From positions 62,001 through 126,000 of the forward strand of contig NCGO01000004.1 in assembly GCA_002256985.1 (NCBI GenBank): a stretch of DNA of 64,000 nucleotides. Direction: 5' to 3'. Position numbers and translations under genes: made by a program. The DNA is from Novosphingobium sp. 28-62-57 (lineage in GTDB: Bacteria > Pseudomonadota > Alphaproteobacteria > Sphingomonadales > Sphingomonadaceae). The notes below the pieces were generated by a model. It had not been told where the DNA came from. It saw nothing but the letters and a program-made list of their open reading frames with translations, and did not search any database. Shown in pieces: positions 12,120 through 61,442 of this stretch. Every line of letters starts with the position of its first letter. Position 1 is the first letter of the stretch.

Positions 12120-13853
12120 TTGAAGAAGCCTTTGTTCGCCACGTTTGCTGGTGTCGTCGCTATTGGTGTCTCCGGGACCGCTGTTCAGGCCCAACAGGCC
12201 GTCCAGACCAGAGATCAGCTTGATCTGCCCGTAAACAAGCCCGAAGCCGCGCCAGCCAGCGCCAGCGTGCGGTCCGAAGGCATCGAGGCAGGCCCTTGCC
12301 CCTTGGCGTCGAGCGATATTCGCGCAACCATCACCAGCGTTGAAATCACGGCACCGGGCGGCGTTGCCCTGCCGGGAGAAATCGCACGGTTGCTTGGCGG
12401 CATCACTCCGGCAGGCGGCGAACAGCCCATCCGGCAGGTGTGCGATTTGCGCGATGAAGTGCAATCGCGCCTGCGTGCTGCGCGTTATGTGGCCAGTGTT
12501 CAGGTTCCGCAGCAGCGCATCGATACCGGTGTATTGAAGCTGGAAGTCGTGTCGGGCCGCATCGTGGAAATGCGCGTGCGCGGGGATGTTGGGCCTTATC
12601 AGGCCCTGCTGCAGCGCAGACTTGACCAGATCAAGGCGCTCGATCCGCTTAGCGAAGCGGAAGCAGAGCGCATCCTTCTGTTGTCCAACGACATTCCAGG
12701 TCTTTCAGTAGCTCTCTCGTTGAGCCCGGCAAGCGGTCGCCCTGGGGATCTGATCGGCGAAGTGCTGGTCTCGTTCCGGTCCTTCTCGCTCCTTGCAAAC
12801 TTGCAGAACTACAACGCGGACTTCCTCGGAAGCGAAACCGGGCTGGTTCAAGCGGAATTCTATGGCCTGACGGGCATGGGCGATATCACCACATTGACCG
12901 GGCAGAGCACGTTCGATTTCAAGGAGCAGCGCATTGCGGCGCTGCGCCATGCAATGGTGCTGAACAATGCTGGCACCACGATGGAACTGCGCGGCGTATT
13001 GGCCGAAGCGCGCCCCGATATCTTGTCGCTCGATCAGCGCACGGTGTCCATTATCGCCGGGCTTGGCTTTGCGCACCCGCTGGTGCGGACCGTGACCGAT
13101 CGGGTGAAGCTGTCCGGTGGGTTCGAATATTCGCTGCAGCGTTCGCGGTTCTTCCAGCCGGGCGGGCCTTCAAGTCCACTCACGCGTGATCGCATTTCGT
13201 CGCTCTATCTGCGGCTTGATGGATCGCGGGCAAAGCTTGATGCAGGCGGCGAACAGATTGGCGGCGTGAACGGATCGCTGGAGGTGCGCCGCGGCATCAA
13301 CGTGTTCGGTGCATCGCGCGATGCTACTCCGGTTGATGGCTTTGGCATTTCCCGCACCGATGGCAGCGCGCTGGCCACCGTGGTGCGCGCCAACATCGAA
13401 GGTTTCTACAAGCTGGGGCCTGTCTTTGAACTGGCCGGCGAAGTGAACGCGCAATGGGCCAACCGCGCCCTCCTGAACTACGATACTTATGCCATCGGCA
13501 ACTTCACGATTGGCCGCGGCTATGATCCGGGTGCCAATACGGGGGACCGGGCAGTGGGCTTCGTCATCGAGCCACGCATCAACTTCAAGCTTGATCAGAA
13601 AGTCGCAGGCCAGGTCTATGGCTTCTACGAAGGCGTCAAGCTTTGGAACATCGGCCCGAACGCGACGGAAAGAGAGCGTTTCATCGCCTCGGTTGGCGGT
13701 GGTGCAAGGGTATCGTTGGCGCAAGCCATCCGCCTCGACGTGACCTACACGCACGCGCTCGACAAGCCCCTGTTGACCGGCGCGTTTTCGCGCAGGCCCG
13801 AGGACAAGGTGCTCGTGTCGATGACCTTCCAGTTCGTTCCATTCAGCATTTGA
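12120..13853 (+). CDS. TpsB/ShlB/FhaC-family two-partner secretion transporter
   Basis: An outer-membrane Omp85-superfamily transporter of 577 residues that should export the adjacent TpsA. Seen in order: a signal peptide starting KKPLFATFAG and ending near TAVQA; a proline/alanine-rich linker; a POTRA region (ITSVEITAPG to LKLEVVSGRI), which binds the TPS domain of the substrate; then a 16-strand barrel with the conserved GRGYDPG motif at the tip of the plug loop L6. It ends in SMTFQFVPFSI. The TTG start is chosen because it gives a clean signal peptide; an in-frame TTG at 12066 would add 18 residues ahead of it. tpsA follows after 20 bases. Confidence 0.88.
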   Translation: MKKPLFATFAGVVAIGVSGTAVQAQQAVQTRDQLDLPVNKPEAAPASASVRSEGIEAGPCPLASSDIRATITSVEITAPGGVALPGEIARLLGGITPAGGEQPIRQVCDLRDEVQSRLRAARYVASVQVPQQRIDTGVLKLEVVSGRIVEMRVRGDVGPYQALLQRRLDQIKALDPLSEAEAERILLLSNDIPGLSVALSLSPASGRPGDLIGEVLVSFRSFSLLANLQNYNADFLGSETGLVQAEFYGLTGMGDITTLTGQSTFDFKEQRIAALRHAMVLNNAGTTMELRGVLAEARPDILSLDQRTVSIIAGLGFAHPLVRTVTDRVKLSGGFEYSLQRSRFFQPGGPSSPLTRDRISSLYLRLDGSRAKLDAGGEQIGGVNGSLEVRRGINVFGASRDATPVDGFGISRTDGSALATVVRANIEGFYKLGPVFELAGEVNAQWANRALLNYDTYAIGNFTIGRGYDPGANTGDRAVGFVIEPRINFKLDQKVAGQVYGFYEGVKLWNIGPNATERERFIASVGGGARVSLAQAIRLDVTYTHALDKPLLTGAFSRRPEDKVLVSMTFQFVPFSI

Positions 13854-13873
13854 AGCCCGGGGGAGATAAACCG

Positions 13874-16800
13874 ATGAACAAGGCCATCAATGGCAAGCGT
13901 CGTGCCCTCCGCCTCGGCACCGGCATCGCAACTTGCATATCGACCATCGTGCTGGCGCATTCCGCATTCGGGCAATCGCTGCCCGAAGTGGCGAACGCAG
14001 GCGGTGCAAACATCAGCACGACCGGCAATACCATGACGGTTGATGCCTTGGCGGCTGACAAGGTCATCAACTGGGGCACATTCTCGGTTGCGCAAAACAA
14101 CATCGTGAACTTCGTGTCCACCGATGGTGTGGGCGGAGCTGTGGCTACGCCAGTAACGGTGATCAACCGCGTGATCGGCAAGGATGTTGGTGGAACCAAC
14201 ACGTTCTTCCCATCGATCATCGATGGCCGGATCTCGTCTACCAGCAATATTGCGGTTTGGCTGATCAACCCATCGGGCGTGCTGTTCGGGCCAAGCGGAA
14301 GCTTCAATGGCGGAAGCCTCGTTGTCTCCACGCTCGATTTCGCTTCGGGCACCGGCAGCCAGGTGTTTGGGGCAGGCAACAGGACGACTACGCTCAACAG
14401 CCGTGATGTCGTAATTGATGCGGCAACTGCGCTTGGTGCGGTGGAACTGAAGCTCGAAACCGGGCCCGGCACATTCACGTCCAGCGGCTCGGTGCTGCTG
14501 CTGGGTGAGCAGGTTACCGTTGGCAAATCGCTGACTGCGCAGGGCGATGTCTATATCGTGGCAGCAAGCGATGTGCGCGTGACGTCGCAGGTCGGCAGCC
14601 CCGTGGGCTATGCTTTCACCGCTGGGACGCGGCTGAACGGCGCGCAAGTGCTGGCCAGCGGCAACGTGCAGGGGCGCAGCATCGTGATGGCGGCCTCGAA
14701 CGGCACCAGCACGATCGCCACACTGCTGCAAGTGGACACCGGCGGCCAGTTGACGGCCACGATGGACAATGGCGGCGTGACCTTGCTCACCGCCGCACAC
14801 CCAAGAGGTATGGCAACGGCGACGGGCGCCAACATCGTCAGCGATGGCGGTTTGCGCACGCTGGGTATCGATGGCGATATCGCTGTGACGTCCAACGCCA
14901 ATGTTTCGGTTGCGCGGGCTGATGCGACCGGAAACATCACGATCCGTTCGGGCATTGGCGCAACCGACACGCTGACTGCGGGCACCGTGCAGGCGGGGGG
15001 CAATGTCGATCTGCGCTCGACCGGCAATACCACGCTGGGCATTGCCGCTATTGATACGATTCAGGCCGGTGGCACAGTGGGCATCCGTTCGACCGGAACC
15101 ATTGGGCGCGGGGCAATGTCGGGCACGCTCGCGATCCGGTCTCATGCCGAACCGACCATGACCAATGGCGAACTGTTCATCCAGTCAACCGGCAATGCGC
15201 TGCTTGGCAACGCCACGCTTGCAGCTGGGTCTGCCGGAACGGCCAACCTGACGCTGCTTTCCGGGACCGGAGCGATCACGCACGGCTCGGCAGTGGCCAG
15301 CAAGTACTCTGCATCGGCGGCCACAACGCTCGCAGCAACCGGCACGATTACCGCCGACAATTCGGCATTGGTGCCCGCAGGGACGGCGCTCTCGATCAGT
15401 GCGCCGGGCGGGATCACGCTGGGCATCGCGCGCACTACAGGGGCTGATCAGGACATTTCCCTGTCTACCACTGGTGCCGTTGTCGTCGGATCGATCACCG
15501 CATCGCGCAACCTTTCGATCGGCAGCTCTGTCAATCCGGCCCTGAGCCTGACCGCTGGTTCGCTCACGGCCACGACCGGCGCGATCAATGCTTCGGCAGG
15601 CAGCATGCAGATCGGGACGGTTACCGCGGGCCAGTCTGTAGGGCTGCGTTCTGATGGCGCCATCGAGGTGACCACTGCTGGCACTTCGGGTGACAGTCAG
15701 CCGTCTGGCAACTTCAGCGTTTCAGGGATCACAGGGGCTCGCGCCGCTTCGTTCACGGGCGGTGTCATCAATGCGAAGACCGGTCTGGTCAGCATCTCCG
15801 CCAACACCATGACGATCAATTCCGTGCAATCGGCAGGCAATGCCACGCTGAACGGAACGGCTGGAATGACGTTGGGTTCGGCGAATGTGGGCGGCAATCT
15901 GCTCGCGACCACCGCCGGAAACATCACGCTTGGCACGACAGGCGCACAAAGCATCGTTGCCGATGGCCGGATCACGATTACATCCACTGCAGGCGCGATC
16001 GGGCGCGGCATAGGGTCTACAGCGCTCACCATCCGCTCCAACGATGGCGACGTTGCACCCCCCGATGCGCTCGCGATAACCGGCCAGAATGCCGTAGCGC
16101 TGGGCAATGCCGGGCTGTTTGGCGGCACCACAGGATCAGCCGCAGTATCGGTCGAATCCATCACAGGTGCGGTCACCATCGGCACGGCGCAGGGCTCCAG
16201 CGTTACCGGAAGAGCCGCGACGACGTTCACCGCTGGCGGTTCCATCCTTGCCGACAGTGCCACAGCGATTACCGGCAATACCATCAACATCACCGGTCTG
16301 GCCGGGCTTGACCTGCAAACCGTGCGGACGGGCGGGACGGGCGAAAACATCGTCCTCACCAGCAACGGCCCGATCAGCGCAACCACGCTGGCGGCGCGCA
16401 ACAATCTGACAGTGGCAAGCCAGGGCAGTCCGGCTGCCAGCCTCTCGGCAACCACGATGACCGCGCAACTGGGCTCGATCAACGCCTTTGCGCAGGGCAT
16501 GACAGCCACGAACATCACGGCTGGACAGGCGATCAACCTGCGTTCGAATGGTGCGATTTCCGTAACCGGTGCAGCCACCGCAGGCACCAACCTGTCGGTT
16601 GCCGCCATCACGGGCGCAAATGCGCTGTCGTTCACCGCAGGCACCGCCGAAGCAACCGCCGGGAATGTCGATGTAAGGGCGATTACGACCGATATCGGCA
16701 CGACCCGCGCCGGCACCGATGTGGCAGTGTCTGGCACCACTGTAACGCTCGGCAATGTCAGCGCCGGGCTTGGCGGCACGACCGGCTCCTATACGGTCAA

Positions 16801-19800
16801 CGCCACCGGTCTGGTCACTTTGGGCAAGGCTGATGGTCAGCGTCAGACCGCGCTTGATGACATTTCCGTCACAGGCGGCACCATCGTCGAAGGCGCCAGC
16901 GGTCTTGTCGTGACGTCCGACAGCGGCGGCAGCGGCGCGCGCGATCTTGAACTCGCGACGCTGACCGGGCCGATCAGCCTTGGCACGGCCACACTCAATG
17001 GCGGTCCGGCAAGGCAATCGGCGGTCCTGGTCGATTCCACAACGCAAGTTGCGCTTGGCGCGGCTAACGGCCTGTCGGTCACGGCGACCGCCAATGGCGT
17101 GACAGGTGACGTGATCATCGAGCGGCTTACTACCGGAACCGGTGCCGCCCTGATCACCGCGAGCCGCGACGTTTCGATCGATCGCGTGACGGCAGGTGGC
17201 GACTACACCGTTAATGCTACGCGCAACATCACGCTCGGCTTCTCGGGCAGTCAGGTCCAGTCGGCGGTCGGGGCGATATCGATCACCAGCACGGGCGGTT
17301 CGATCAGCCAGGGCATGCCGGGCGTCGTGCTGACGTCGGATAGTGACGGCAATGGAGTTGGTGCACTCACGCTTTCTGCTCCGGTCGGTGCGATCAGCAT
17401 CTCGGCTCTGAATGGCGGTCCAGCCCGACAGGCTGCGATCTCGGTTGGTTCGGGATCGCACACCACCATCGGCACGGCCAATGGGCTGTCGTTCACGGCG
17501 ACAACCGGGGCCACCGGTGATTTCTCGATCGAAACCCTCAACACCGGAACAGGTGTCGCCTCGATCACGGCTGGGCGCGCTGCCACGATTGGCAATGTAA
17601 ACGCCGGCGGCAATTACACCGTCAGCGCTGCAGATCTTGTGACGCTTGGCCTTGGCGACAATGCGCGCCAGTCTGCAGCTGGGAATGTTTCGATCACCAG
17701 CACCGGCGGGTCGATCCTTGCCGGTGGCACCGGACTGGTCGTCACCTCGAACAGCGACGGCACGGGTGGCGGCACCCTGTTGCTGGACGCGCAGGGGGCG
17801 AACGGGGCGCTCTCGCTTGCCGGAGCAACGGTCAATGGCGGCACAACGGCAGAGCGGACGGATGTCACGCTGCGCGCCGTTGCCGGTATCACGCTTGCCA
17901 ACATCAATTCCGCAGCGCTTACAGTAACCGCGCGCGATCTTGATAGCACTGGCCAGATCAGGGCCACAGGCGATGCACTGTTTACGCTGAGCGGCCTTGG
18001 CACGATCAATTCTGTCGAAACGACCGGAACCGGCAGCGACATTACCATCGGTGCCGCCAGTGTGAACATCGGCACGGCCCGGTCTTCTGGCGATTATACG
18101 ATCACCACATCGGGCGCAGGCGGCGTCACGCTTGGCATGATGGCAGGGCAGGTCCATTCGGCCGCCGGAGCAATGACCATCACCGCCAACGGTGGCGGCG
18201 GCATTGCGCGTGGCCTGACGGCTGACAATCTGACGCTGACGGCCAATAGCGACGGTGCAGGCGGCGGCGCGATGCTGCTTGATGCCACTGGCGGGATCGG
18301 GCTGGGCGGTGCCACGCTCAACGGCGGAACTGCGGCAGAGCGCTCGGCTGTTACGCTGCTGGCAGATGGCAGCATCGAATTTGCGACTGCGAATTCAGCA
18401 GCCTTCACCGCCGAAGCAGGCGGGTCGTTCCTGAGCACTGGCACGATCACTGCAGCGGGCCCCGCCATGATCACTGCCGCAGGTGAGGCAGGGATCAACC
18501 GCATCATCACGACGGGCGCAGGCAACGGCATTTCAATCAGTGCCCAATCCGCAACGATTGGTCCGGTCACGTCGGCGGCAGACTATACCGTCAACACGAC
18601 CACTGGCGACATCACGCTGGGCAATGGTGCCAATCAGACGCAATCGGCGGTGGGTGCGATCCGCATGACCACTGCGTCCGGATCAATCCGGCAGGGCGGC
18701 GCAGTCACCGGAAACCGGCTCACGCTGCTTTCGAACAGCGCGGGCACGGGCACAGGCGTGATCGAACTGACCGCCACGGGCGGACAGATCGAACTGCCTG
18801 CAGCCTTCCTGAACGGTGGCCCTGCTCAGCAGTCTGACGTCACGCTGAGCGCACTCGGTCCGGTGCAACTGGCGCAAATCAATTCGGCCAACTTCACGTC
18901 GCAGTCCACCGGCAGCTTCACCGCATCCGGTCCGATTGCAGCCGTGGGGTCTGTCACGATCCGCGCGCTCAATGGCATCACGCTCGATACGGTTACGGCT
19001 GAGGGTGCGGGCAACGATGTCTCGCTCGTTTCGAACCAGGCAATCCTTGCCGACCGGATCACCGCAGCGCGCAATGTGACGGTGAGCGGCCCTGCCGCTG
19101 CCCGTGCCGCCAGCTTCACGGCTGGTACCGTTACGGCCGAGACTGGATCGGTCGACGTGAAGGCCACGGCAATCGACATGTCCAGCGTTTCGGCTGGGCT
19201 TGATCTGCTGGCCAGCGGCAATACCGTAGCCATTGGCAGCGTCACTGCCGGTCGCGATTATCGGGTCAACGCCGATGGCAATGTGACGCTGGGCAAGGCG
19301 CCGTTCCAGACTCAGTCTGCAGCTGGCGTGGTTTCGATCATCAGCACGGGCGGGTCGATTGTGCGCGGCGCAAACGCCAATGGGCTGACGCTGACTTCGA
19401 ACAGCGATGGCTCGGGCGGTGGCGACATGCTGCTTGATGCACAGGGCGCAGCAGGCGCGCTGACGCTCGATACTGTCACGCTCAATGGCGGCACGATGGC
19501 GCAGCGCACGGCGATGACGCTGAAATCGGTGACCGATACCGTGGTGGCCAACACCAATTCGGCAGCGCTGACGGCCACGGCACGTGACTTTACCAGCACT
19601 GGCACGGTGATGGCAGCAGGCGATGCCACGATCACGGCCACGCGGGCAGCCTCGGTCAACGCGATCACGACGACGGGCACCGGAAGCGACATTGGCATCA
19701 CGGCCAGCAGCGCGCTGATTGGCACGGCCAATTCTGCTGGCAACTACACCGTCACCACTTCTGGTGCAGGCGGGGTGACGCTGGGCAGGAGCGTGGGGCA

Positions 19801-21715
19801 GACTCATGCTGCGGCAGGGTCGATTGCGATCATCGCCAATGGCGGCGGCTCAATCTCGCGCGGGGCAGACAGCCTGACCGTGACATCCAATTCCGATGGT
19901 GCGGGCGGCGGGTCCTTGCTGCTCGATGCACAAGGCGGGATTGCGCTGGCAGGAGCGACGCTGAATGGCGGCACTGCGGCACAGCGCATGGCGGTGACGC
20001 TGGATGCAGGCACCGATATCGTGTTTGCCAATGCCAATTCGGCAGCGTTCACGGCAACAGCCGGGGACAACTTCACCAGCACCGGCAGCATCACGGCCGC
20101 AGGCGTGGCCGGGATCACGGCGGGCGATGCCGCCTCGATCAACGTGATCGAGACAACGGGCGCGGGCAACGGCATCACGGTGAACGCCGCCAGTGCCGAT
20201 ATTGGCCGGGTCACATCGGCGGGCAGCTATTCTGTCACGACGACGGGCGCAGTGGTTCTGGGCAATGGCGCGGGCCAGGCGCAGACGGCGCGCGGCGCGA
20301 TCACGATCAACGGCGCTTCGATCAGCGAAGGCGCGGCGGGCCTGACGCTCACTTCGGACAACGATGGCAGCGGTGGTGAACCGCTGGCGCTGACGGCGAC
20401 GACCGGGGCAATTGCACTGGGCAACGCCACGCTTAACGGCGGATCGGCGCGGCAATCGGCAGTCACGCTGAACGCCGGTACGACCATCACGACTGGCGCA
20501 GTAAATGGCCGCTCCATAACCGCAGTGGCCGATGCCTTTACCGCCAATCGCGAGCTGTCTTCGGCCACCGACATCACGCTTACGGTTGATGGCCCTGTGG
20601 CGCTGATGCAGGGTGCCAATGCGGTGGGAACTGTCAGGCTTTCAGCTACCGATGCGATGATCGGCGGCACTGTTGATGCCCGCACGATTGAGGTAACCAA
20701 TTCGGGCAGCGGCAATCTGGTGATCGGCGGCACCGCCGCATCTGAAACCGGCAAGTTCGTGCTGAACCGGGCGGAAACGGCACTGCTCAGGGCCACCGAA
20801 ACGCTGACGCTTGGGGCCGATGGCAGCGATAATGTCGAAATCAAGCAAGTAGACTTCGCCGTTCCGCGGACAGTCCGCGTGCTTGCCAATGGCCGACGCA
20901 TCGATATCACCGGACGGATCTCGTTTGATGCCGACACCACGCTGCAGCTTGGCGGCAGCACGGCGGCAAATTCGATCATCCGTCTGCAGACTGGCGCTGG
21001 CGGGACCGGGGGTGCGATCGTCAGCAATGGCGGCGTGCTCGAACTTACCGCGGCCAGCATTGTTGCCGGTTCAACAACCTTTGCCAACGACTTGGGCGCT
21101 GTCAGCGGCGCTGGTTCGCTTGCCGACGCCAGCCGCCTGAACCTGACGCCGGGAAGCTCGCTCTACAACAATATCGGCGGCACCGGTGATACGATGATCG
21201 ATGTCGGATCGATGAAGGTGACGTTCTCGAACTTTGCCATGTTCCAGAACACAAGCGATCCTGCGCGCAGCTTGCTCTCCACCGGGGTCACGCTGGGCAC
21301 TGGCAACCAGCAGGCCATCGCGCTGGATATTCAGAGCGGCTCAAGCCAGCCGGTCTTTGCGATGTTCGGTTCGATCAACGGCGTGATCAACATCGCCACC
21401 GCGCTGTTGGGCAATCCGCCGCTGGCGCACTATGACAATATCAGCGCCTCACGCATCAACGGCTGTCTGATTGGCGGCGGCAATTGCCAGTCGGTACAAA
21501 ACCTCACGCCGTCGCTGACCGCGCTGGATAATATCCGGACGACGATCTTCAGCGTGAAGCCAGACTTCCAGGTGCCGTTCGATCCGCTGGTCGGCACCAA
21601 CAATGATGCCTTGTTCGACGATGTCGGATCGTTCGGGCTTGGTGAGCTTCCAATGACTCCGATCGAATGCAGCGATCCCAATGGTGCCTGCGAAGTAAAG
21701 AAGGGTGGCAACTGA
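13874..21715 (+). CDS. Giant TpsA exoprotein (filamentous haemagglutinin-like)
   Basis: A 2613-residue secreted protein. An extended signal peptide (ending near SAFGQ) precedes the TPS domain (about residues 35-270), with VINWGTFSV, NIVNF, WLINPSGVLFGPSG and GGSLVVSTLDF, the blocks read by TpsB. The body is a long beta-helix of Gly/Thr/Ser/Ala-rich repeats. From about 16900 to 20540, eight degenerate modules carry a motif of the type TSNSDGxGGG...LNGGxAxxR. The C-terminus has two cysteine pairs (NGCLIGGGNC and ECSDPNGAC). An adhesin or surface-fibre role fits. No toxin domain is recognised. The ATG has GGGAGA upstream; the frame runs open back to 13643 inside tpsB, which is chance. Confidence 0.9.
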   Translation: MNKAINGKRRALRLGTGIATCISTIVLAHSAFGQSLPEVANAGGANISTTGNTMTVDALAADKVINWGTFSVAQNNIVNFVSTDGVGGAVATPVTVINRVIGKDVGGTNTFFPSIIDGRISSTSNIAVWLINPSGVLFGPSGSFNGGSLVVSTLDFASGTGSQVFGAGNRTTTLNSRDVVIDAATALGAVELKLETGPGTFTSSGSVLLLGEQVTVGKSLTAQGDVYIVAASDVRVTSQVGSPVGYAFTAGTRLNGAQVLASGNVQGRSIVMAASNGTSTIATLLQVDTGGQLTATMDNGGVTLLTAAHPRGMATATGANIVSDGGLRTLGIDGDIAVTSNANVSVARADATGNITIRSGIGATDTLTAGTVQAGGNVDLRSTGNTTLGIAAIDTIQAGGTVGIRSTGTIGRGAMSGTLAIRSHAEPTMTNGELFIQSTGNALLGNATLAAGSAGTANLTLLSGTGAITHGSAVASKYSASAATTLAATGTITADNSALVPAGTALSISAPGGITLGIARTTGADQDISLSTTGAVVVGSITASRNLSIGSSVNPALSLTAGSLTATTGAINASAGSMQIGTVTAGQSVGLRSDGAIEVTTAGTSGDSQPSGNFSVSGITGARAASFTGGVINAKTGLVSISANTMTINSVQSAGNATLNGTAGMTLGSANVGGNLLATTAGNITLGTTGAQSIVADGRITITSTAGAIGRGIGSTALTIRSNDGDVAPPDALAITGQNAVALGNAGLFGGTTGSAAVSVESITGAVTIGTAQGSSVTGRAATTFTAGGSILADSATAITGNTINITGLAGLDLQTVRTGGTGENIVLTSNGPISATTLAARNNLTVASQGSPAASLSATTMTAQLGSINAFAQGMTATNITAGQAINLRSNGAISVTGAATAGTNLSVAAITGANALSFTAGTAEATAGNVDVRAITTDIGTTRAGTDVAVSGTTVTLGNVSAGLGGTTGSYTVNATGLVTLGKADGQRQTALDDISVTGGTIVEGASGLVVTSDSGGSGARDLELATLTGPISLGTATLNGGPARQSAVLVDSTTQVALGAANGLSVTATANGVTGDVIIERLTTGTGAALITASRDVSIDRVTAGGDYTVNATRNITLGFSGSQVQSAVGAISITSTGGSISQGMPGVVLTSDSDGNGVGALTLSAPVGAISISALNGGPARQAAISVGSGSHTTIGTANGLSFTATTGATGDFSIETLNTGTGVASITAGRAATIGNVNAGGNYTVSAADLVTLGLGDNARQSAAGNVSITSTGGSILAGGTGLVVTSNSDGTGGGTLLLDAQGANGALSLAGATVNGGTTAERTDVTLRAVAGITLANINSAALTVTARDLDSTGQIRATGDALFTLSGLGTINSVETTGTGSDITIGAASVNIGTARSSGDYTITTSGAGGVTLGMMAGQVHSAAGAMTITANGGGGIARGLTADNLTLTANSDGAGGGAMLLDATGGIGLGGATLNGGTAAERSAVTLLADGSIEFATANSAAFTAEAGGSFLSTGTITAAGPAMITAAGEAGINRIITTGAGNGISISAQSATIGPVTSAADYTVNTTTGDITLGNGANQTQSAVGAIRMTTASGSIRQGGAVTGNRLTLLSNSAGTGTGVIELTATGGQIELPAAFLNGGPAQQSDVTLSALGPVQLAQINSANFTSQSTGSFTASGPIAAVGSVTIRALNGITLDTVTAEGAGNDVSLVSNQAILADRITAARNVTVSGPAAARAASFTAGTVTAETGSVDVKATAIDMSSVSAGLDLLASGNTVAIGSVTAGRDYRVNADGNVTLGKAPFQTQSAAGVVSIISTGGSIVRGANANGLTLTSNSDGSGGGDMLLDAQGAAGALTLDTVTLNGGTMAQRTAMTLKSVTDTVVANTNSAALTATARDFTSTGTVMAAGDATITATRAASVNAITTTGTGSDIGITASSALIGTANSAGNYTVTTSGAGGVTLGRSVGQTHAAAGSIAIIANGGGSISRGADSLTVTSNSDGAGGGSLLLDAQGGIALAGATLNGGTAAQRMAVTLDAGTDIVFANANSAAFTATAGDNFTSTGSITAAGVAGITAGDAASINVIETTGAGNGITVNAASADIGRVTSAGSYSVTTTGAVVLGNGAGQAQTARGAITINGASISEGAAGLTLTSDNDGSGGEPLALTATTGAIALGNATLNGGSARQSAVTLNAGTTITTGAVNGRSITAVADAFTANRELSSATDITLTVDGPVALMQGANAVGTVRLSATDAMIGGTVDARTIEVTNSGSGNLVIGGTAASETGKFVLNRAETALLRATETLTLGADGSDNVEIKQVDFAVPRTVRVLANGRRIDITGRISFDADTTLQLGGSTAANSIIRLQTGAGGTGGAIVSNGGVLELTAASIVAGSTTFANDLGAVSGAGSLADASRLNLTPGSSLYNNIGGTGDTMIDVGSMKVTFSNFAMFQNTSDPARSLLSTGVTLGTGNQQAIALDIQSGSSQPVFAMFGSINGVINIATALLGNPPLAHYDNISASRINGCLIGGGNCQSVQNLTPSLTALDNIRTTIFSVKPDFQVPFDPLVGTNNDALFDDVGSFGLGELPMTPIECSDPNGACEVKKGGN
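16900..20540 (+). repeat. Eight degenerate repeat modules inside tpsA
   Basis: The protein motif SNSDG/SDSDG-x-GGG followed by a hydrophobic strand, LNGG and a (Q/E)R or RQ pair occurs eight times, starting near 16915, 17337, 17750, 18245, 18732, 19400, 19887 and 20358. Spacing is about 410-670 bases, so modules have diverged in length as well as sequence. Between them are further short strands such as GNGITVNAAS and GAGGVTLG. Confidence 0.8.
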
Positions 21716-24700
21716 TGAAGCGCTTGTTTCTGGCCTCACTCTCGGTAGTGGCGCTTGCGGTTTCGGCCGCGCCGGTTGCGGCCAAAACTGCCGAATTGCC
21801 TGATCAGCTCGAATTGGGCCGCAATGGCGCGGGCAATCCGTGCGTGGCAACGCCGTTCTGGAAAGAGGATGCATTCAAGGGCAGCTACACGTTCACCTGC
21901 CGCGGACCCACCGGCAACCGCTATCTCGGCATTGTTCGCGCGGTCCGTTCCAGTTCCATCGATGTGGTTGATCGGCTGCTGGATTGTGGGCCAGGCATGG
22001 CGGTAACCCTTCCAAGCATAGGCGCGGCCACGGCCCGGCGTTGCTTTGACAAACTGCTGGGCCAGGAAACGGTCGAAACGCGCTTTTCGCGCGATGGCCG
22101 CGTCTATTCCTCAAGCGCCATTCCGGTTGCGCAGGGGCCTGCCGAGGAAGGTTTGCGGTTTCTGGCAGGCGCTGCTGCGCCAAACAACGATCGCGGGCGG
22201 ACCACGACCGCAGTGGTCGAAATTGGCGTTCTGGCACCATCGCCAGCGGTGAATGCTGCTGCGGCAGGTGCCGTGGCCAATGCCGAGGATGCGCTGGCGC
22301 AGGGCTTGCGGTTGGTGCGGCAAGGGCTGCATCTGGATGCTGCGCGCATTGTCAGCGATGCCTTGGCGCGCTTGCCGGCCGATACTGCGCAGGCGACCCG
22401 CATCGATCTGCTGCTGCTGGCTGGCCTTGCCGATTCCAACTTGCGTTTCTTTGATTCTGCCGATGATTACTTCGGCCGTGCGGCAGCTCTGCTGGCGCAG
22501 AATGCCGGCATTCCCGGTGCCGATGTGTTGCAGATGAAGAGCCGCAACTATGCGGCGCTGCATCTGATCAACAAGCGCGAATTCAGCGTCGCGGCCACGG
22601 CACTCGACGTATCGGGCATGTCCACGGCGGTTGCAAATCAGCCGCTGCTCGACACGCGTGAAGTGCAAAAGCTGAATGAGGCACCAAACACGGGCACCGC
22701 AGGATCGGCGCTCGCATCGGCGTGGGACAACCGCAGCCGCACACAGCTGGTGATCGATGCGCAGGCGGGCTGGGCGCGCAGCGTTGCGCTGCTGGGCCAG
22801 AACCGCCCGCAAGAGGCGGCTGCAGCGCTGGCCTTTGCTGACACCAGCATCGAGGCCTTGCGCAAGCAGCCCATTCCGCAACAGCAGCTCTTGTGGCTGG
22901 CCGCGCGGATTGAGCGGCAGCGCGCGCGCATCCAGTTGCGCGATGGAGACCGTACCTCTTCTCTGGCATCGCTCGACAAGGCCATCGGTTTCTTGCGGCT
23001 TGCCGAAGATGCGGGCGACAATGGCCCGGCGCTGGCACAAGTGCAGTTGGAGCGAGCCGCGGTGCTCTCGGGCGGCGGCGGTTCAACCGAAGAGGTGCTG
23101 GCCCAGTTCGATGATGCGGTGACCAGCCTGATTTCGGCCGATGCCGGGGTAGGCGGCCTTCCGGCCCAGACTCGCAGCTATCTTGATGCGCTGGTCAACG
23201 ATGCAGCACAGCGTCCGGACGGTGCCTCGCCCGAACGGTTCTTCCGCGCCATGCAGGCGGCATCGACCCCTGCCATCGCGCGTCAGTTTGTTGAATTGCA
23301 GTCACTGATCGCATCAGACCCGGCGCTTGCAGCAAAAGTGCAGGACCGTCAGGAAGTTGAACGCGAGATCAACCGTCTGCGCTTCGAGATTGCCTCGGGC
23401 ACGGATGCGGCCAAGATTGCCGAGCTGGAGGCGCGCAGAGCCGCACTGGAAAACCGCTCGCTCACATTGCAGAATGAACTGGCTGCCAACGGCTCGTTCC
23501 GCCAAGTGGTCGACACGCCCGCTTCGATGGCTGAAATCCGTACCGTGCTGAAATCTGGCGAGGGCTATCTGAAGCTCAGCAAGGTGGGCGGTTATGTGTT
23601 TGGTGCGCTGATCGATGAAAGCGGATCGCGCATCTATCGCGTCGCCCGCCCAGCGGTCGAGATTGAGCCTTTGATCAAGACCGTGCGCGCATCGATTACC
23701 GGCGGCGGTGAGAACGTGCCGGTATTCTCGGTCGCCGGGGCCAGCGCGCTTTACAAGCTGCTGTTCGGCCCAGCTGCAAGCCGCGTTGCGAACTATTCGG
23801 CGCTGGTGATCGATGGGTCAGGCGTGCTCGATACGCTGCCGGTTGGGGTGCTGGTGACAGATGATGCATCGGCCACGACGTTTGCCAAGAACCGGCGCAA
23901 GGATCCCTATAACTACACTTCGGTCGCTTTCCTTGCCCGCAAGATGGCACTGTCCACGGCGCTTTCGCCTCGGTCGCTGATCGTATCGCGCAACCTTGCG
24001 CCATCGAAGGCTCCCTATCCGTTCATCGGCTTTGCCCAGCATATGCCGACGCCGGTCGAAGCTGCCGCCGGTGGCACGATGGTGAGCATTGGCACCAGTT
24101 GCGAGGTCGAATTGAGCAAGGTGGCTGAACTCAGCCGCATGCTGGAGCCGATTGACGCGGTTGAACTGAAAGAGGCCACTGCGGCATTGGGCGTGGAAAA
24201 CGCACCGGAAGTGACGGGCGCCGAATTCACCGACACGAACGTGCGTGGCCGCACCGATCTTGATCAGTTCCAGGTGCTGCACTTTGCCACCCACGGCCTG
24301 ACCGAAGGCCAGTGGGGCTGTGCCAAGGCTCCGCCCGCGCTGGTCACCACCATCGGCGAAAGCAATTCCGATGGCATCCTTTCGTTCGAGGAAGTCGCCC
24401 AGTTGCGGCTTGATGCAAACCTCGTGGTGCTGTCGGCTTGCGATACCTCTGCCGGTGTCAATATCAACGCGGCGCGTGCAGCAGGGCAGGAAGATGTCGG
24501 CGCCTCACTCGACGGTCTGGTTCGCGCATTTCTGGCAGCGCGCGCACAGGCGGTGCTTTCAACCTACTGGCCAATTTCGGATGCCGGTGAAAGTGTGGCG
24601 CTGATCTCCGATTTCTATGCCAATGCGCGCAACGATACGATCGGCGGTGCCCTGCAAAAGGCGCAAGTGTCGCTGATGGCGGATCGGGACAGCTCGCATC

Positions 24701-24849
24701 CCCTGTTCTGGGGCGCGTTCGTGCTGGTTGGCGATGCGCAGAAATCGTTGCTGAACGGGCAGGCGAGAGCCGCGCTGATGCCAAAGGACGTGGCACCTGT
24801 GGCAACTGCCGCCCCGATTGCTGCTGGCGCAGCAACGGTCGGCCGGTAA
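21715..24849 (+). CDS. Exported TPR protein with C-terminal CHAT protease domain
   Basis: A 1044-residue protein with a signal peptide (MKRLFLASLSVVALAVSAAP...), a cysteine-bearing N-terminal domain, TPR-like helices (about 185-430), a charged coiled-coil-like stretch (about 540-600) and a CHAT domain (about 690-1020). CHAT domains are caspase-like cysteine peptidases; the expected pair is present as His860 in HFATHG and Cys909 in LSACDT. Its ATG overlaps the tpsA stop (TGATG), so it is coupled to tpsA. The domain order recalls cyanobacterial CHAT proteins beside haemagglutinin-like exoproteins. A periplasmic processing or quality-control protease for the TPS system is a reasonable guess; substrate unknown. 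Confidence 0.88.
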   Translation: MKRLFLASLSVVALAVSAAPVAAKTAELPDQLELGRNGAGNPCVATPFWKEDAFKGSYTFTCRGPTGNRYLGIVRAVRSSSIDVVDRLLDCGPGMAVTLPSIGAATARRCFDKLLGQETVETRFSRDGRVYSSSAIPVAQGPAEEGLRFLAGAAAPNNDRGRTTTAVVEIGVLAPSPAVNAAAAGAVANAEDALAQGLRLVRQGLHLDAARIVSDALARLPADTAQATRIDLLLLAGLADSNLRFFDSADDYFGRAAALLAQNAGIPGADVLQMKSRNYAALHLINKREFSVAATALDVSGMSTAVANQPLLDTREVQKLNEAPNTGTAGSALASAWDNRSRTQLVIDAQAGWARSVALLGQNRPQEAAAALAFADTSIEALRKQPIPQQQLLWLAARIERQRARIQLRDGDRTSSLASLDKAIGFLRLAEDAGDNGPALAQVQLERAAVLSGGGGSTEEVLAQFDDAVTSLISADAGVGGLPAQTRSYLDALVNDAAQRPDGASPERFFRAMQAASTPAIARQFVELQSLIASDPALAAKVQDRQEVEREINRLRFEIASGTDAAKIAELEARRAALENRSLTLQNELAANGSFRQVVDTPASMAEIRTVLKSGEGYLKLSKVGGYVFGALIDESGSRIYRVARPAVEIEPLIKTVRASITGGGENVPVFSVAGASALYKLLFGPAASRVANYSALVIDGSGVLDTLPVGVLVTDDASATTFAKNRRKDPYNYTSVAFLARKMALSTALSPRSLIVSRNLAPSKAPYPFIGFAQHMPTPVEAAAGGTMVSIGTSCEVELSKVAELSRMLEPIDAVELKEATAALGVENAPEVTGAEFTDTNVRGRTDLDQFQVLHFATHGLTEGQWGCAKAPPALVTTIGESNSDGILSFEEVAQLRLDANLVVLSACDTSAGVNINAARAAGQEDVGASLDGLVRAFLAARAQAVLSTYWPISDAGESVALISDFYANARNDTIGGALQKAQVSLMADRDSSHPLFWGAFVLVGDAQKSLLNGQARAALMPKDVAPVATAAPIAAGAATVGR

Positions 24850-58331: not shown

Positions 58332-61300
58332 TCATCGCGCTTTCAGGTCCGGCCCATCCTGCAACGCATTGCCCGCCAGAAACCACAGCGCCTGACGGCT
58401 GGGCATGAAGAAATAGCCGCCTCCGCGCAGCGTGATGAAGCGTTGCAGGTCTGTCAGGTGCAGCGGGGAGTTGCGGCCGTGGATGGTAAAGCCCGCCGTC
58501 TCGCCGCCTGCATCGCTGGTGTGGTGCATGGCAAAGGGATCGGGTTCCCCTTCCAGCCCGTGGAACGTGGGCGAGGCCAGCCAGGTCTGCTGCACGAATT
58601 CGAACTGCCGTTCGAGATCGGCGTTGAAGCACATGAACAAGGTGCCCAGCGCGGTCTTGCCGGCCGGGTCAAGATAGGGCCGCCCGCGCCGCAGCAACCG
58701 GTGGCGGTTGGTGACGGAAAGCTCGGCCGGATCGGTCTGGGCCAGGCTATCGCGCGGGAAGGACCGGCGCACGTGGGCACCAAAGGGGCAGCGCAGCCCT
58801 TGGGGATCGGCGTCCTTGTACAGAAAGCCATTGCGGCGCATCGCATCGGCACCGCTGCGAAAGGCCGGTGCAAAGGGGTGATCGACCAGCGTCGACCCAT
58901 CGCGCCAGCGGCCCAGCATCTTGGCCGCGATCCATTCGCGCGTGCGGTGCAGATTGCCATCTTGCGGGTTGATCGCATCGCGTTGGCGACAAACGTCCTT
59001 GGCGACGTCATCAAGCTGCTTTTCGAATTCGCTTACATCCTGTGAAAGCTGGCGGATCACCAGATAGCTGCCGTTGCGGCCAAAATCGCGCGGGGCTGTG
59101 GGGCTGCCGGTGAAATCGGGATATTCGCTCGGCTGGCCTTGCGGGGGGGCGGGCAGGCGCTGGCGGCGCAGGCCCGGGGCCAGATCATCGCGCTCCACTT
59201 GCGGGGAGGGCGGGTAGTAGCCGCGGTTGTCGGTATAGCCCAGAATGAACTCGCCCGGCTCAACTCCGTGGACCGGATCGGGCGCGCCATGCCGCCCGGG
59301 AAAGCCGCGCACCAGCGGCTGCGATACGCCATCGACAAAGCCGAACGGCTCGGTCGAAAGCTCGTCGGTGATGTCGGCGCGGGCATGGGTAAAGGGTTTG
59401 GCCGAAGCGGGCTGGAGCGTCTCGGCCCCATCCCATGCCGCGCGAAAGGCGGGAAGATCAAAGGCGTTGATGCCGGTGCGGATATGGGCGGTCTGCGTCA
59501 GGCCATGCACCTCGGCCTCGGCCAGCAGGGCGTCGATCTGCAGGGCGTGGGCATCGTCCTTGGCATAGAGCAGCAGCGCGACGTGGGTGTCGGCATCGCA
59601 CCATTCGAGGGTTTCAGGATCGCTCAGCGCGCGCCTGCGGCTTTCGTGAGCCATGCCGAGCGAGAAGGCGGGCGGAAAGCCCTGTGCCGTGCCGCTGCCT
59701 TCCAGCGCCAGTTCGCGGTCCAGCCCCAGCAGGCGCAGGCCCGAAGCCGATAGCGCCAGATTGCACACGATATCGGCGGGCGGCTTGTCGCCAAAGGCAA
59801 TCTCGTCGCGCTCCAGCAAGGCGGCGAGCCATGATTGCACGTGGGCACAGGGGTGCTGGCCGTCCTGCGGATTGGCTGCGCCGAAGTTCAATCCCACCAC
59901 ATAGCTGTGCGGATGGCGGCGCAGGCCGCCGAACATCAGCGTCTGAATCTCCTCGTACTGCAGGCCATAGGCGGGGCGGGGGATCGTGCCGAACAGGTCG
60001 AGCCAGGCCTCGGCATGGGAAGGGCAGCTTTCCAGCGCCTTGCGGTGAAGCAACCCGCTGACGATCAGGGCGTGCTTGCGGATGGCGGCGGTGGACAGAT
60101 CGGGATAGGCCGAGAACCAGAAAGGCGTGGGCTGCATCGAATTGCGGGCAAAGCGCTTCATCCGGTCGCCATCGGCCGCGCCTTTCAGGAACAGGAACTG
60201 TGTGGTGGGGAAGCCTTTGGCGTTGCTCCAGACGGCCGATACGCCTTCGGAGGACTTGGTAATGAAATCTTCGAGATAGCTCTCCCAGCTGCCATCGTAG
60301 TTGGACAGGAACACCAGTTGGCGCGTGCCTGGCAGCACCACCCAGCGCGCGGCATGGATCGTGCCGATCGTGGCGAGGAAGCCGCGCCGCATCGCGCCGA
60401 TCCGCGCCATAGTGGCAATCGCGATGAAGGCGAGCGGGAGCGAGAGCTTGCGGATCAGCGCGGGGCGCAGTTGCGTGATGCTGATCATGTGGTTCTGCAC
60501 CACGCCGGGCGCGCTTTCGCGGGCCATCATCGCGCCAAGCGCAGCGGCGGACGGGGTGCGGTCATCGGGCGTGTTGGCCTGTTCGTCGCGACGGAGCAGC
60601 AAGGCAAAGATCGCCACGATCACCACCGCCAGCAGCAGCGTTGGCAAAATTGCGCCAAGCAGCGCCGGAACCAAGCCTTCCCCGCCCAGCAGCAGCGCGA
60701 TCAGCCAAAGCGCATAAGGCACTACCAGCAAGGGCAGCCACAGGCCCCGCGCGCCCGCCAGAGCGCGTCCGATCCAGCCCAGCGTGAAGCCTGTACGTTG
60801 ATATTCGAGCCATGGCGCATCGGCGGTGTCGCAAAAGGCGAGCGCGGGGGGCTGCTTGTCGGGCAGAGCGGCCAGTTCGTCCTTCAATTGATCGGCCACC
60901 ACTTTCAGGATCGCCTGCGGCCCTTTCATCGTGGAATTGCGCCGCTCGTGCGCGATGATCCCGCGCGCGGTTTCAACGATGCGGCGGTTGGCACCGATCG
61001 CGCCCACGCCAAGGCCCGGAAGGCCATTGAACGGCAGGCCGAGAATGCGCGATGGCAGGCGCACCGCAGACTGGCTGATGCGGTGGCTGTGCTGTTTCAG
61101 CAGCGGCAGCACCGCTTCGGCCTTGTCGATCTGGCTGACGAGCTTCAGCAAAGGCAGCAACGCTGCGCCCGCGTGGTGCGCAATCGCCTCAAGCGCGGTA
61201 TCGGGATCGCCGTCTACTGTGGCCTCGATCAGGAGATGCGCCGGGCTTCCCGGTGCTTCGGGCGCAATCGCATGGATGCTGGCAAAGTGGACCAGACCGG

Positions 61301-61442
61301 TATTGCTCAAGCCTTGCGCGATGGGTCCTTCAGCCGGATTGCCCAGTTCGGCAATCTCGCGCTCGACATCCTTGATGCTGCACCATTCGGACTTGTCGCC
61401 AAAGGGGATGGCGATGGTGATGACATCCTGCGAAAGGCTCAC
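58332..61442 (-). CDS. Large membrane-anchored Dyp-type peroxidase
   Basis: A 1036-residue protein, about twice the usual Dyp size. Two membrane spans at about 233-253 and 257-283 are followed by a middle region and the C-terminal Dyp domain (about 500-1020). It keeps the GFVDG motif with catalytic Asp704, His890 as proximal haem ligand in CPFGAHVRRSFPRD, and a distal arginine candidate near 797. Dyp peroxidases use H2O2 to oxidise dyes, lignin-like compounds or other substrates. There is no Tat signal. It follows the P450 gene by 24 bases in one operon. The first 230 residues are not recognised. Confidence 0.85.
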   Translation of the reverse strand: MSLSQDVITIAIPFGDKSEWCSIKDVEREIAELGNPAEGPIAQGLSNTGLVHFASIHAIAPEAPGSPAHLLIEATVDGDPDTALEAIAHHAGAALLPLLKLVSQIDKAEAVLPLLKQHSHRISQSAVRLPSRILGLPFNGLPGLGVGAIGANRRIVETARGIIAHERRNSTMKGPQAILKVVADQLKDELAALPDKQPPALAFCDTADAPWLEYQRTGFTLGWIGRALAGARGLWLPLLVVPYALWLIALLLGGEGLVPALLGAILPTLLLAVVIVAIFALLLRRDEQANTPDDRTPSAAALGAMMARESAPGVVQNHMISITQLRPALIRKLSLPLAFIAIATMARIGAMRRGFLATIGTIHAARWVVLPGTRQLVFLSNYDGSWESYLEDFITKSSEGVSAVWSNAKGFPTTQFLFLKGAADGDRMKRFARNSMQPTPFWFSAYPDLSTAAIRKHALIVSGLLHRKALESCPSHAEAWLDLFGTIPRPAYGLQYEEIQTLMFGGLRRHPHSYVVGLNFGAANPQDGQHPCAHVQSWLAALLERDEIAFGDKPPADIVCNLALSASGLRLLGLDRELALEGSGTAQGFPPAFSLGMAHESRRRALSDPETLEWCDADTHVALLLYAKDDAHALQIDALLAEAEVHGLTQTAHIRTGINAFDLPAFRAAWDGAETLQPASAKPFTHARADITDELSTEPFGFVDGVSQPLVRGFPGRHGAPDPVHGVEPGEFILGYTDNRGYYPPSPQVERDDLAPGLRRQRLPAPPQGQPSEYPDFTGSPTAPRDFGRNGSYLVIRQLSQDVSEFEKQLDDVAKDVCRQRDAINPQDGNLHRTREWIAAKMLGRWRDGSTLVDHPFAPAFRSGADAMRRNGFLYKDADPQGLRCPFGAHVRRSFPRDSLAQTDPAELSVTNRHRLLRRGRPYLDPAGKTALGTLFMCFNADLERQFEFVQQTWLASPTFHGLEGEPDPFAMHHTSDAGGETAGFTIHGRNSPLHLTDLQRFITLRGGGYFFMPSRQALWFLAGNALQDGPDLKAR

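Follow-up and report, generated by a model that had tools for sequence, protein, structure and literature searches.

The DNA analysed here, hereafter the window, is a stretch of 64,000 nucleotides from Novosphingobium sp. 28-62-57, and its forward strand carries three adjacent genes, tpsB, tpsA and chat, which as read from their sequence are one operon (Table 1). They encode a transporter, a fibre protein and a protease of the CHAT family, and this text concerns their linkage and a short motif near the C-terminus of TpsA that accompanies the protease. The initial annotation of this DNA had described a TpsB, a 2613-residue TpsA and a CHAT protein with tetratricopeptide repeats (TPR) in one operon with overlapping stop and start codons, and we found all three where it had placed them, with the last base of the tpsA stop codon TGA serving as the first of the chat start codon ATG (TGATG). 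All gene orders and counts given below come from our own calling of open reading frames (ORFs) and our own reading of gene neighbourhoods, in sequence data only.

Table 1. Features of the operon, in positions of the window
Feature	Position	Strand	Basis
TpsB, outer-membrane two-partner-secretion transporter, ShlB/FhaC type, TTG start	12120..13853	+	ORF, Pfam, TpsB tree
TpsA, 2613-aa secreted fibre protein, filamentous-hemagglutinin N-terminal domain	13874..21715	+	ORF, NCBIfam, PDB match
Cysteine pair of TpsA (SRINGC-x6-C), like the HMW1/HxuA periplasmic disulfide anchor	21464..21487	+	alignment of tails
TpsA C-terminal motif FDPLVGTNNDALF, proposed CHAT recognition/processing site	21578..21616	+	regex, EM, alignment
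TPR-CHAT protease, 1044 aa, export signal, start overlapping tpsA stop	21715..24849	+	ORF, Pfam, profile match
Predicted signal peptide of the CHAT protein (MKRLFLASLSVVALAVSAAPVAA)	21715..21783	+	by eye and hydrophobic stretch
New N-terminal domain with four invariant Cys (codons 21841, 21898, 21985, 22042)	21784..22164	+	alignment, genome search
CHAT caspase-like domain; catalytic His 24292-24294, Cys 24439-24441	23740..24735	+	Pfam, alignment

By their profile and structure matches, the window TpsB and TpsA are a two-partner secretion (TPS; type Vb) pair. TpsB scores 25 bits against Pfam ShlB (cut-off 22.7); its POTRA_2 match, at 19.1 bits, stays under the cut-off of 24, which a relative (L118) exceeds. 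TpsA has no Pfam match, scores 37.1 against NCBIfam TIGR01901 (cut-off 29.1), and its N-terminus matches the HxuA structure in the PDB (4i84, E 8.6e-7). A search with this N-terminus as the query finds only itself.

The third protein has CHAT (PF12770; 133.9, cut-off 24) as its sole Pfam match and is a predicted Cys/His peptidase of that family. The initial annotation held His860 and Cys909 to be intact; these residues of the 1044-aa form (H876 and C925 of the longest frame) are indeed so, and the catalytic His and Cys are kept in 78/78 aligned CHATs of the family survey described below, 42 of them linked to TPS genes and 36 not (four extra rows, second stretches, are gapped at the dyad in another CHAT alignment). 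Starting from the overlapping ATG, the N-terminus resembles a Sec signal peptide, read by eye with the hydrophobic stretch computed, in keeping with the export signal proposed earlier. Behind it, the four Cys of the new domain are invariant in 31/31 aligned rows drawn from the 42 linked CHATs. In searches of solved structures the CHAT protein itself gave four chance coiled-coil designs, the four-Cys domain gave no match, and the profile of the linked CHAT clade gave TPR proteins only (kinesin light chain, best E 2e-6); a PHROGs search gave nothing useful.

The window genome (4.1 Mb, 39 contigs) encodes five CHAT proteins. One of them belongs to a second TpsB>TpsA>CHAT operon at another place, and beside the other three we saw neither TpsB nor a large TpsA-like ORF. 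Among the matches listed, the closest named relative of the window CHAT is in Novosphingobium sp. 17-62-19 (85% identical). Public annotation calls such genes "filamentous hemagglutinin N-terminal domain-containing protein", "CHAT domain-containing protein", "CHASE2 domain-containing protein" or "hypothetical protein". Scans for promoters (5 predicted, 2.7 in shuffles) and terminators (4 against 10.7) were uninformative.

Linkage of CHAT proteins to two-partner secretion genes

In a sample of 99 genomes of the family, the window genome (G000) included, CHAT (PF12770) occurs in 45, with 93 matches. We read 80 of their neighbourhoods and the window; the 12 matches left out comprise 11 at ≤84 bits and one at 156 bits (G031:C26:7172), a place with no four-Cys domain. 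Three loci (L108, L109, L114) yielded no CHAT frame with the profile, and 78 CHATs entered the tree. Three same-strand arrangements recur: TpsB>TpsA>CHAT, as in the window; CHAT>TpsB>TpsA; and CHAT>~680-aa gene>~270-aa gene>TpsB>TpsA. At L039 the order is TpsA>CHAT, with TpsB further on. The ~680-aa gene encodes CHASE2 and a cyclase by Pfam at the two loci tested (L118, L133) and by annotation at L255, and at other loci it was assigned from size and position; a cysteinyl-tRNA synthetase gene, identified by eye, lies 3' of tpsA in L118, L132 and L133.

All 42 CHATs of the three arrangements form one clade in the tree of 78 (SH-aLRT 95, midpoint root), with no unlinked member; outside it are 33 unlinked CHATs and three odd ones (L041, L067, L073). 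A search for the four-Cys domain, which scored ≤43 candidates per genome, found it at 39 places in 30/99 genomes, each the start of a linked CHAT, so that a four-Cys domain away from CHAT was rejected; the linked CHATs that it missed are three divergent members (L039, L040, L042). The two alignments used hold 36 (A1) and 31 (A4) of the 42 linked CHATs, and no domain start was recognised in L039, L040, L042 and L061, the further missing rows having been omitted by choice. A conserved tpsB-tpsA-CHAT order, for which the initial annotation had proposed a genome survey, proved to be a conserved linkage in three gene orders: a large TpsA-like ORF stands in the operon of 39/39 four-Cys CHATs, and 35 of these operons show TpsB as well (in one case as a fragment where the region stops), the fetched DNA of L053, L082, L102 and L107 having ended within tpsA. 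Distances between CHATs and between the corresponding TpsBs are concordant (Mantel r 0.94, 50 loci, 0/5000 permutations), which points to inheritance of the whole operon as one unit.

The linkage also extends to named genomes. The best 80 of 542 matches to the CHAT profile are mostly from Sphingomonadales; some come from Caulobacterales, two from gammaproteobacteria and a few from less defined records, and in 72 of these 80 a TpsB or TpsA-like ORF adjoins the CHAT gene by reading; the match begins ≤1.8 kb from a contig end in the remaining eight. In a phylum sample, 58/398 genomes have a match to the whole CHAT profile (E 1e-20), which in many of them covers just the CHAT part. A TPS-CHAT operon like those of Sphingomonas also occurs in a record labelled Bacillus sp. 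2B10, which is probably mislabelled or contaminated.

Some loci resemble this system from a distance. A second TPS association lies outside the linked clade, in the three odd loci (two genomes of one genus), where a short CHAT (~770-810 aa) precedes a TpsA of ~810-980 aa and a TpsB; it has neither the four-Cys domain nor the tail motif described below. Two Azospirillum plasmids (L263, L267) carry a hypothetical protein, a cyclase and TpsB in that order, with no CHAT by profile and no clear TpsA in the stretches read. A fusion of TpsA and CHAT, to which long open frames in G351 and G129 seemed to point, was rejected because the frames are separate or overlapping. So was the idea that a cluster on a Calothrix plasmid represents this system, since the annotation of AP018209.1:106413-165000 holds no TpsB or TpsA; the TpsB profile gave no match in the first 25 kb of that stretch.

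A tail motif that accompanies the protease

Near the C-terminus of TpsA lies a sharply bounded motif, [ED]PVTGaGN[DE]xLW, of which FDPLVGTNNDALF is the window version. It was first spotted in TpsAs of the first arrangement; the second and third arrangements, the loci of named genomes and the plasmids were fresh looks, and these also have it. A first regular expression (regex) matched 23/11,823 ORFs from 81 + 40 loci, and all 23 matches start ≤50 residues from a TpsA stop in CHAT loci. Unsupervised expectation maximization (EM), with one site per sequence, was applied to the C-terminal 100 residues of 81 linked TpsAs (88 before redundancy was removed) and gave the pattern IDEPVTGAGNEAL at 24 bits. 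The 22 control tails, some of them related to one another, yield a pattern of their own (19 bits), and the EM score by itself is therefore no proof. With leave-one-out scoring, 73/81 linked tails exceed the best of the 22 controls. These controls come from 30 fetched TpsA loci without an adjoining CHAT, mostly of other TpsA subfamilies, from which eight were dropped because of a contig or region end (L144, L159, L160, L161, L163, L165) or broken or unclear frames (L162, L170). The scoring matrix picks wrong proline-rich sites in L039, L040, L116 and L211, and the 18 bits attained by control L136 likewise stem from proline-rich sequence, not from its last 100 residues. We do not count those scores as evidence.

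The conserved block spans 14 positions, followed by a variable tail; over 80 sequences the Pro has 3.8 bits, the Asn/Asp 2.8, the final aromatic 4.3 and the next position 0.3. Among the four-Cys systems 37/38 complete tails match the final regex, which was fixed after the family tails had been seen (35/36 on file and two more read by hand); the tail of L105 is degenerate, and the 39th (G065) is truncated where its contig stops. None of the 22 TpsAs without CHAT matches, and the background outside tails is 13 matches in 266,055 residues, or 0.005 per tail. The same regex matches 27 of the 52 other linked tails; in the remainder we saw by eye either a variant or no motif. Within the subfamily of the window operon the majority motif is PFDPLxGxNNExL, and all 14 aligned tails keep one Asn and the Leu; a gammaproteobacterial tail (L250) has SGANESLW, the Caulobacterales have TGTGSEEIW, and proteins of the L039/L040/L116 group end in letters like SGSGNPSQW, a motif variant or its absence. 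Two TpsAs (L135, L155) have extra degenerate VTGT-type copies after the canonical one. Three control TpsAs without CHAT (L136, L138, L158) have a different C-terminal sequence in common, P-V-Y-P-R-K-x-A-R-[HN], which may mark a separate tail system.

The motif lies beyond a pair of cysteines. The pattern N-x-C-x4-10-C occurs in the last 220 residues of 70/81 linked tails vs 1/22 controls (the looser C-x4-10-C in 72/81 vs 11/22), and both Cys are invariant in 14 aligned window-type tails. The best motif site is C-terminal of the pair in 69/70, at a median of 57 residues, a few of these sites being the wrong proline-rich ones. A C-terminal disulfide keeps the tails of some TpsAs, HMW1 and HxuA, in the periplasm, according to excerpts of PMC5422565 and PMC8151025. 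The window pair resembles this anchor and may form such a disulfide; if it does, the motif would lie in the periplasm, where a Sec-exported CHAT would also be.

Motif and protease are also absent together. In a TpsB tree of 68 rows, made with a quick method, three systems without CHAT are nested in the linked clade of 49 (support 100): L150 and L166 in one genome (G053) and L154 in another (G072), neither of which has a CHAT match. Their TpsAs have no motif, with best tail scores of -2.8, -9.1 and -3.2, so that motif and CHAT are jointly absent in each. L154 retains the N-x-C...C pair, which indicates that pair and motif are separable. A Thalassospira locus (L265) agrees, with TpsB>TpsA, no CHAT in view and no motif by eye; it stands outside all counts, as does Azospirillum L264, whose tail lies beyond the stretch. 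In turn, the motif is kept across changes of gene order and fibre length and in operons without the genes for CHASE2 and the small secreted protein, which leaves CHAT as the common factor. A partnership of the motif with CHASE2 or with the small secreted protein was rejected, as by our reading neither is beside the window operon or other TpsB>TpsA>CHAT loci, where the motif is present. We also rejected, by argument, an outer-membrane beta-signal, because TpsA is not an outer-membrane barrel and the controls have no motif. The operon, its co-inheritance, the intact dyad and the association of motif with protease can all be read in the genes themselves, and the coupling of the CHAT protein that the initial annotation described is thereby extended to a C-terminal TpsA motif that tracks the protease.

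Readings of the motif

To account for this association, we propose a TPS system with its own dedicated processing protease, and consider it fairly probable that CHAT recognises, and most likely cuts, the tail of TpsA. TpsB would export TpsA until the Cys pair near its C-terminus, by analogy with HMW1, HxuA and CdrA, probably halts translocation, and the last residues with the motif would remain in the periplasm. There the exported CHAT, with its four-Cys domain, TPR and caspase-like domain, would recognise the motif and most likely cut the tail at it or nearby, and the cut would alter the anchoring or release of the fibre. Since many relatives have a CHASE2 cyclase and a small secreted protein in the operon, a signal may control the processing step. 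The initial annotation had suggested that the protease "processes, anchors or releases" the fibre or kills on damage; the former is now the favoured class of mechanism, and for the latter nothing was found, with 0 PADLOC models matching the three proteins at E 0.01.

Several observations weigh against this proposal. The motif score is not above the best control in 8/81 linked tails; Niveispirillum (L256) has the final W only, and it and L261 have at best a weak motif; and the separate TPS-linked CHAT group of three loci (L041, L067, L073) has none. Only the three nested systems, from two genomes, part the motif from the operon, which are small numbers; their fibres may differ otherwise too, and motif and CHAT could travel together simply because whole operons do. 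The predicted structure of the TpsA tail has a mean pLDDT of 39 and no usable fold, and the periplasmic location, the binding, the cleavage and its consequence are steps that we infer. Finally, because the motif sits on the C-terminal side of the presumed anchor, cutting within it would not on its own free the fibre in the way that LapG frees CdrA: either a second cut would be needed, or the motif would serve purely for docking. A motif in this position could thus be used for trimming, for an exchange of the sortase type, or to dock CHAT for a cut at another site.

Two narrower forms of the proposal are special cases of it. If the motif is a docking tag, CHAT could cut N-terminal of the Cys pair and shed the fibre on a signal, for example from the CHASE2 cyclase, much as LapG does; we regard this as possible, if rather unlikely. 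LapG belongs to peptidase family C93, and PF06035, which we take to be the Pfam model of that family, has no match in the window genome, which fits CHAT as a stand-in. The same model matches in 21/99 genomes with no clear exclusion by eye, and no cyclase stands among the scanned window neighbours, although CHASE2 and a cyclase are found by Pfam in two operons and by annotation in a third, and CdrA/LapG, as described in parts of PMC11898600 and PMC6156197, is a functional precedent. Alternatively, CHAT could act in a sortase-like manner, cutting at the motif and joining the new C-terminus of TpsA to an amine of the cell, as has been proposed for PorU; this seems improbable to us. A short conserved C-terminal motif of 14 positions before a variable tail (0.3 bits), an enzyme with Cys and His, and a cut after the Cys pair, which suits anchoring better than release, would all fit. 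So would an Arg 28 residues after the catalytic Cys in 39/42 linked CHATs, somewhat like the Arg 32 after the Cys of PorU in the excerpted text of PMC4560394, but this Arg is also present in 22/36 unlinked CHATs. No nucleophile is known, and no hydrophobic stretch or basic end follows the motif by eye, the tails being short, variable and often acidic. Substrates of C60 sortases, by comparison, carry an LPXTG-type motif, a hydrophobic stretch and a basic tail, and we know of no transpeptidation by a CHAT protein. Were it so, an exported CHAT transpeptidase that links TpsA via [DE]P-V-T-G-x-G-N-[DE]-x-L-W, in many species under CHASE2 control, would amount to a second sortase-like pathway of Gram-negative bacteria, one independent of the type IX route, and we hold this to be more doubtful still.

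The other two readings need no cleavage. The TPR and four-Cys part of CHAT could bind the tail and hold the fibre or sense its secretion without proteolysis of TpsA, as the TPR scaffold and the restriction of the four-Cys domain to TPS-linked CHATs in our sample would suggest; a pure tether would have no need of the catalytic His and Cys, and their invariance in 78/78 makes it less likely, so that we give this reading little weight. Shared ancestry alone, with operon and tail co-inherited and a motif that serves export or folding, has in its favour the strong co-inheritance and controls that are mostly of other TpsA subfamilies. Yet three nested systems without CHAT have no motif, the motif survives changes of gene order and fibre length, and other TpsAs do not have it; on balance such an explanation appears unlikely to us.

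Genomic surroundings and comparison with known systems

Beyond the operon (window 25801-54498) lie genes for a CPBP/Rce1-like membrane protein and, on the minus strand, for an M23 peptidoglycan peptidase, and then a type VI secretion cluster with TssK, TssL, TssM, TagF, PP2C, a kinase, VipB and a ClpV-like protein; at 58332-61442 (minus strand) lies a 1036-aa protein with a C-terminal DyP-type peroxidase match. On a Sphingomonas parapaucimobilis plasmid (L254) a TPS-CHAT-CPBP-M23 block stands between tssH and tssK, within type VI secretion genes, which suggests that the window type of TPS-CHAT may belong to a type VI secretion island.

No neighbour of a CRISPR III-E, gasdermin or other defence system was found among the 19 window ORFs scanned with Pfam, and the comparison with CRISPR- and gasdermin-linked CHAT proteases made in the initial annotation applies to the protease domain only. 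Craspase Csx29 and other TPR-CHAT proteases share TPR, CHAT and the Cys/His dyad; Csx29, however, is part of a CRISPR complex and is described, in excerpts of PMC10028731, with an N-terminal helical bundle, TPR and two CHAT domains and no four-Cys domain. In the type IX secretion system (T9SS), PorU likewise has a Cys and a His in its active site and works on the C-termini of secreted proteins (PMC4560394, in part), but it is gingipain-like and its substrates carry a conserved C-terminal domain (PMC4804311, in part) rather than a short motif; the three window proteins have no gingipain-like or T9SS C-terminal-domain match in Pfam or NCBIfam at E 0.1.

In open PMC full text, subscription journals and preprints lying outside, we found no paper linking the CHAT domain to two-partner secretion, filamentous hemagglutinin or CHASE2, and among the papers listed there on two-partner secretion and caspase, none concerns such a system by title or start of abstract. 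A 2017 review (PMC5422565), in the sections available to us, states that the genes of maturation proteases seem to lie outside TPS operons and counts several such proteases as unidentified. The system described here is a large, co-inherited group that encodes protease, transporter and fibre together, with a precise tag on the fibre, and this protease-linked tag suggests an undescribed route of fibre processing. The CHAT proteins of this group thereby gain a candidate substrate and site; the motif can be used to seek further substrates, and tests with short peptides could show what exported bacterial caspase-like proteins cut.

Among TPS systems, HMW1 and HxuA, the latter the closest solved TpsA, share the C-terminal disulfide anchor in the periplasm, but no CHAT partner is mentioned in the excerpts of PMC5422565 and PMC8151025. 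FhaB of Bordetella is likewise a TpsA matured by a protease, SphB1, a subtilisin autotransporter that, unlike the CHAT protease, is encoded outside the fha locus (PMC5422565, in part). A further likeness is to CdrA/CdrB and LapG of Pseudomonas aeruginosa, where, as described in parts of PMC11898600, PMC6156197 and PMC5422565, a second messenger controls a periplasmic protease that cuts a TPS fibre, anchored by C-terminal Cys, close to the C-terminus. There the signal is c-di-GMP, whereas here a CHASE2 cyclase is encoded in some operons; here the protease is in the operon and the motif lies C-terminal of the Cys pair. The window CHAT matches PF12770 only and not PF06035, and the system may represent a new form of TPS maturation, carried out by a protease of a different family from LapG.

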